DNA of 64,000 bases. Source: Alteromonadaceae bacterium. Its GTDB lineage: Bacteria > Pseudomonadota > Gammaproteobacteria > Pseudomonadales > Cellvibrionaceae. Shown here piece by piece: positions 19,738 to 20,573 of the stretch. Location of the stretch: positions 1 through 64,000 of the forward strand of contig NVXL01000007.1 of the NCBI GenBank assembly GCA_002746115.1, read 5' to 3'. Numbering within the stretch: position 1 is the first letter of the stretch; every line of letters starts with the position of its first letter. The notes beneath the pieces were generated by a model, which was not told the origin of the DNA, ran no database searches, and saw only the letters and a program-made list of their open reading frames with translations. Made by a program: the position numbers and the translations under genes.

Positions 19738-20358
19738 TTATTCGCGCACTTGTATTACTGCACTTTCCGTAACCACCGCGGTTAGCGGTACATCCCATTT
19801 GTTTCGTTTGATTCTCTGAACCTGCTGAAAGCTATGCGCAAGCCCCACTAAATGAGGGGGCATAACGGTGCGTGTTTCCTGCTGTTTAAACGCAAAGGTT
19901 CTGTCATAAAATCCGCCCCCCATGCCTATCCGGCTGCCACGCTTGTCGAAGGCGACCAGGGGTACGAATACTAGGTCAAGCTGGCTTGGTGGGATTGTTT
20001 TTGTGTGTGAACTTGGCTCTTTAATGTTAAATAGGTTGGCTTGCATTTGAGCGAAAGGGCGATACAGTCGAAAGTGCAGTGGTTTAGTTGGCTGATCTAT
20101 ACAGGGTAGGTAGCAGTCTTTATTTTGAGCTAGCGCAAGCTTGAGCAGCGGTAATGCCGATATCTCCCCGTCGTTGGGTAAGTAGAGGGCGATGCTTTTG
20201 GCTTGAATGAAAAATGCTTGTCGGCTAATGCGCTTGGCGAGTTTGAGTCCAGCATTTAGTTGGCGTACTTTGTTTAAGTTTTTGCGGCGTTTGCGCAGCT
20301 GCTTACGAATAGCCGATTGGCTTAGCGTGTTAAGTGCTTTTTTGTTTGGCGTGTTAAT
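19738..20358 (-). CDS. 5-formyltetrahydrofolate cyclo-ligase, start codon not canonical
   Basis: YgfA-family enzyme (5-FCL) that uses ATP to convert 5-formyl-THF to 5,10-methenyl-THF. The C-terminal half has RIGMGGGFYDRTF and WDVPLTAVVTES. The N-terminal half is intact in the same frame upstream of the only ATG (20046): RKQLRKRRKNL and the signature SIALYLPNDGEIS. That region, up to the in-frame stop at 20398-20400, has no ATG, GTG or TTG. A start at ATT (20356-20358) would give 206 residues, close to family length; ATC 20382 and ATA 20376 are alternatives, none with a ribosome site. Initiation at 20046 would give a 102-residue protein lacking the nucleotide/folate-binding N-terminus. It directly follows the 6S RNA, as ygfA does in E. 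coli, and is probably co-transcribed with it. Confidence 0.8.
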   Translation of the reverse strand: MNTPNKKALNTLSQSAIRKQLRKRRKNLNKVRQLNAGLKLAKRISRQAFFIQAKSIALYLPNDGEISALPLLKLALAQNKDCYLPCIDQPTKPLHFRLYRPFAQMQANLFNIKEPSSHTKTIPPSQLDLVFVPLVAFDKRGSRIGMGGGFYDRTFAFKQQETRTVMPPHLVGLAHSFQQVQRIKRNKWDVPLTAVVTESAVIQVRE

Positions 20359-20394
20359 AGATTTTAATTCGCGTATACGGATAAGAGATAGGAG

Positions 20395-20567
20395 AAATCA
20401 CCCAAAGTGCCGCTGTTAACCTAACCTTGAACCGAGGAGTTCAAGTGGGAGGGAGCCGTGTATGTCGGGCTTTCCGTCTAGCGGACATGCGCTCCAATAC
20501 ATCAAGCTGCCTCCTGGGGTAGGATTATCGGCTCAGGGATTCGGATAACTGGCGAACACCTCAGGAT
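20395..20567 (-). ncRNA. ssrS: 6S RNA
   Basis: The minus strand carries the known features: 5' segment CCTGAGGTGTTCGCC, then CCCTGAGCCGATAAT, a central stretch around CTTGATGTATTGGAGCGC, and the 3' arm TTGAACTCCTCGGTTCAAGG followed by AACAGCGGC, which pairs back with the 5' end. Length is about 173 bases. 6S RNA binds the sigma-70 holoenzyme by mimicking an open promoter. Its position between zapA and the 5-FCL gene is the classical gammaproteobacterial arrangement. Ends are estimated from the -10 box and the closing stem; they could be off by about 10 bases. Confidence 0.9.
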
Positions 20568-20573
20568 GGGTTC

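Follow-up and report, generated by a model that had tools for sequence, protein, structure and literature searches.

The 5-formyltetrahydrofolate cyclo-ligase (5-FCL) gene that lies behind the 6S RNA in the window, by which we mean the whole stretch of 64,000 nucleotides analysed here, lacks a canonical start codon. The first ATG, GTG or TTG in its frame is the ATG at 20046-20044, at residue 118, and of the 54 frames of the window that run for at least 150 codons from stop to stop, no other goes more than 60 codons before its first canonical start. The reading that we favour, with a probability of about one half, is that translation starts slowly at the ATT at 20358-20356 and would yield a complete enzyme of 206 residues at a low level. 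The elements on which the argument turns are the following.

20395-20570, reverse strand: 6S RNA (ssrS), matched by Rfam RF00013 at 83.8 bits (gathering score 46.4); the genome has no second copy.
20399-20405, reverse strand: TTG (20405-20403) and GTG (20401-20399) at the 3' end of 6S; three-frame translation puts both in frames other than that of 5-FCL.
19738-20397, reverse strand: 5-FCL open frame, stop-to-stop length 219 codons; no other 5-FCL in the genome.
20380-20382, reverse strand: ATC, less likely start; in frame, no Shine-Dalgarno (SD) sequence at usable spacing, energy 0.6.
20374-20376, reverse strand: ATA, less likely start; in frame, no SD, energy 2.8.
20356-20358, reverse strand: ATT, most likely start (predicted); 206-residue product (M)NTPNKKALNTLSQSAIRKQLRKRRKNL..., SD energy 0.1.
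20308-20310, reverse strand: ATT, codon 30, unlikely start; in the conserved first helix, the domain match beginning at residue 28.
20296-20298, reverse strand: CTG, codon 34, unlikely start; in the conserved first helix, inside PF01812, SD energy -1.7.
20044-20046, reverse strand: ATG, first in-frame canonical start, residue 118; would yield a half protein of 102 residues.

The identity of the gene is clear from its frame, which is bounded by a TGA at 20400-20398 and a TAA at 19740-19738 and matches the cyclo-ligase family over its full length: PF01812 with 148.2 bits (cut-off 27; residues 28-211, model positions 2-186 of 186) and TIGR02727 with 162.6 bits (cut-off 84.9; residues 28-211, model positions 2-182 of 182). 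The solved enzymes 1sou, 2jcb and 3hxt are also matched by sequence, in alignments that open at query residues 26-29. Because the 6S RNA occupies 20395-20570 on the same strand, its 3' end abuts the open frame, and 19738-20397 is a predicted 5-FCL gene of the ygfA/fau type belonging to the conserved unit of 6S RNA and 5-FCL. This ssrS-ygfA arrangement, with 6S followed by 5-FCL on one strand, is well known in E. coli and other gammaproteobacteria (PMC2848244), and 6S stands directly upstream of 5-FCL in 184 of the 191 loci of the order; most relatives have an ATG, GTG or TTG start, whereas the gene in the window does not. A simple scan of the gene's strand found no terminator-like or promoter-like site between 6S and 5-FCL, and the only canonical triplets nearby are the TTG and GTG of the 6S tail, both in other frames. 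The initial annotation had placed the gene right behind 6S RNA, with a frame open to the stop at 20398-20400, a 5-FCL N-terminus encoded upstream of ATG 20046, no canonical start ahead of that ATG, and rare in-frame codons at ATC 20382-20380, ATA 20376-20374 and ATT 20358-20356; the reading frame, the RF00013 match and the domain matches from residue 28 bear out all of this.

These three codons lie upstream of the conserved domain, and two further rare codons in the frame, ATT 20310-20308 and CTG 20298-20296, fall within its first helix. Among the candidates, ATT 20358 is most likely the best start. It stands 23 codons ahead of the anchor, and starts in relatives are mostly found 12-31 codons ahead. 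Codon usage across residues 14-29 scores 0.62 bits per codon in frame versus -0.07 and -0.44 in the other two frames, close to the top of what known gene starts within the window reach, so that a start at ATT 20310 would leave a coding-like segment untranslated; residues 1-13 are uninformative in this respect (0.16). The surroundings of ATT 20358 are 70% AT and weakly folded. No SD was found at any of the three upstream rare codons (energies 0.1 to 2.8). A GGTGAT at the end of 6S (20403-20398) was considered as an extended SD and set aside, because even the closest rare codon of the frame, ATC 20382, lies too far from it and because the bulk of the stretch is paired inside the 6S stem. About 30% of 5-FCL genes with a canonical start likewise have no SD, so 5-FCL often manages without one. 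An AUU start that has no SD should be very weak.

The gene thus resembles infC-type genes in having no usable ATG, GTG or TTG and an in-frame rare codon (AUU, AUC, AUA or CUG) at the expected place, but it does not have the strong SD that offsets the weak codon in such genes. infC, which encodes IF3, starts at AUU or AUC and is autoregulated by IF3 (PMC5472188). The window genome's own infC starts at ATT behind a GGAG, in keeping with infC in other bacteria; the likeness is therefore in the AUU start predicted for 5-FCL, and the difference in the SD, present in infC and absent here. Streptomyces sigR, with a GTC start that is repressed by IF3 (PMC5472188), is a second parallel, a non-canonical start outside infC that is thought to limit expression; the sigR start, however, was established experimentally and is conserved across streptomycetes, whereas the rare 5-FCL starts are sporadic and predicted. 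By analogy with these genes, the 5-FCL message would be read through from the 6S RNA, presumably from the 6S promoter, and the ribosome would start slowly at ATT 20358 on an AT-rich leader without an SD. Like other AUU starts, this one would be inefficient and held in check by IF3, and its product would be the complete 206-residue enzyme at a low level. The low expression that the initial annotation expected of a rare start codon is plausible. We infer, in sum, that the gene is translated and that ATT 20358 is where translation begins.

Relatives offer a broader view of how 5-FCL begins. Our survey of 5-FCL N-termini covered 278 gammaproteobacterial genomes, 189 of the order (window included) and 89 of the wider class, with a heuristic choice of start. 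The nearest comparisons came out empty: a GTDB r220 contig scan for close relatives of the window protein returned only a distant Gastranaerophilales match, and a search within the window's genus yielded no second species. Within the order (n=189, two further truncated loci being left out), 143 loci have ATG as their best candidate start, 28 have TTG, 14 have GTG and four have none. The four with no canonical start ahead of the domain are the window and the loci of genomes G033 (L023), G144 (L080) and G206 (L159); L080 retains a TTG seven codons before the anchor. In the wider class G389 (L257) is a clear fifth case, and the other four apparent cases are explained otherwise. The five clearly startless loci, the window among them, thus belong to separate lineages, and since canonical starts are present in the congeners of G033, G144 and G206, each loss seems to have arisen separately within its own lineage. 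As a control, the gene zapA has no locus without a canonical start out of 65, against 4 of 189 for 5-FCL, a difference that is not significant with so small a zapA sample.

Several loci that had first looked startless or rare-started were rejected. L118, L139 and L172 have an ATG or TTG further upstream, just after or at the 6S end; in L258 and L280 the start is an ATG overlapping the final bases of 6S; in L235 a GTG falls within the 6S end; and L254 (G347), with ten consecutive A directly behind a TTG in another frame, resembles a poly-A frameshift, be it an assembly error or genuine slippage.

The rare codons of three startless relatives support the idea that such starts are used. Each stands 6-7 nt behind a GGGAG and 13-22 codons before the anchor: CGGGAG-AACCCT-ATC in L023 (SD energy -7.4), TTGGGAG-CAACCT-ATC in L159 (-6.5), where the GGGAG is at the very end of 6S, and GGGAG-TTACAAT-CTG in L257 (-8.3). 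A rare codon with an SD energy of -6 kcal/mol or lower occurs in 1.9% of 269 canonical-start loci, the rate expected by chance, versus 3 of 7 startless ones (binomial P about 2e-4, at a threshold picked post hoc). So strong an SD is found at only 9% of canonical 5-FCL starts, a rarity that fits compensation for a weak codon. Rare 5-FCL start codons are thus probably real and recurrent in some relatives. The window is the weakest and least certain example. The strong-SD relatives use ATC, ATC and CTG, no other 5-FCL in the survey was seen to start at ATT, and the exact string around ATT 20358 is absent from all other fetched loci. The proposal of a rare start, already made in the initial annotation, gains from the startless relatives and from the genome's own infC, and is weakened by the missing SD; of the codons it had named, ATT 20358 is the one best supported, ATC 20382 and ATA 20376 being less likely.

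Because the window has no SD, gene decay and assembly error have to be weighed as rivals. Under early decay, a mutation would have removed the start and little or no enzyme would be made, stop codons having not yet accumulated. The absence of both an SD and a canonical start is what one would expect of such a gene, and 5-FCL is damaged elsewhere: two species of genus g2 are without its N-terminus and the 6S 3' arm, and in G083 (L050) the match to the gene is split in two on a single contig. Yet the 219-codon frame in the window is free of stops and frameshifts, its domain scores are those of a full-length protein, its codon usage is gene-like up to residue 14, and the 6.28-Mb draft genome holds only this one 5-FCL, with no second copy as a replacement. 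We therefore hold decay to be rather unlikely. A one-base sequencing or assembly error that masks a canonical start, such as one at 20358-20356, seems to us unlikely in turn. The window sequence comes from one draft assembly of 297 contigs, and ATT is a single base away from ATG, but no other gene in the 64-kb window appears damaged at its start and startless 5-FCL loci turn up independently in other assemblies. Moreover, the per-base error rates of finished drafts are low enough to make a hit on exactly this codon improbable.

An indel could also be at fault, be it real or introduced in assembly, if it has cut the 5-FCL frame off from a true start, TTG 20405 or GTG 20401, in the tail of 6S. 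In principle, one indel between about 20398 and 20357 could fuse either triplet to that frame; each is followed by 13-15 open codons in its own frame, and in L258 and L280 an ATG start does sit over the last 6S bases. Between 20397 and 20359, however, the 5-FCL frame has a better codon score than the other two, and neither triplet has a good SD upstream, which makes a hidden indel very unlikely. Translation from ATG 20046, which the initial annotation had listed as an alternative, has in its favour that this is the first canonical start in frame. It would nevertheless discard the N-terminal half of the domain, residues 28-117 of the PF01812 match, which are conserved and aligned with 1sou and 2jcb, and we consider a 102-residue product extremely improbable.

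A slow start at ATT 20358, our preferred reading, would place 5-FCL in sparse company, since very few bacterial genes are, to our knowledge, known to start outside ATG, GTG and TTG. Gene finders miss or shorten genes with rare starts, and automatic annotation may label the 5-FCL of the window as missing or truncated. A survey of 36 genome triplets counted just 3 AUG starts switched to AUU or CUG among 61,358 cases (PMC5622118). If 5-FCL repeatedly uses rare starts behind 6S, these loci, together with their ATG, TTG and GTG relatives, would form a natural series for probing the use of weak initiation. One could go further and suppose that 5-FCL has repeatedly come under IF3-controlled initiation, its start having moved to AUU, AUC or CUG in scattered gammaproteobacteria, with the 6S 3' end sometimes serving as SD, a generalization that we regard as quite unlikely. 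Folate recycling contributes to the supply of formyl groups for initiator tRNA; were the generalization true, this recycling would be tuned by initiation fidelity and by 6S processing.

Some further observations concern the start region of 5-FCL and its junction with 6S. TTG is the best candidate 5-FCL start in 28 of the 185 canonical-start loci of the order (15%) versus 1 of 65 for the neighbouring zapA, an excess with a Fisher p of 0.0015. The two-piece match in L050 suggests a frameshift or an insertion. The two species of genus g2 share a deletion (L054 in G074 and L063 in G073; L200 and L201) that takes the 6S 3' arm and roughly the first 45-50 codons of 5-FCL and leaves the remainder open, and the sole 6S match in each of these genomes is a partial one that falls below the Rfam cut-off. 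In L258 and L280 it is the RNA model itself whose last bases are overlapped by the 5-FCL ATG. Finally, a G-rich 6S 3' end (TTGGGGAG and similar) lies at SD distance before the 5-FCL start in L159, L118 and L139, where translation of 5-FCL may be in competition with 6S maturation for the bases they share.
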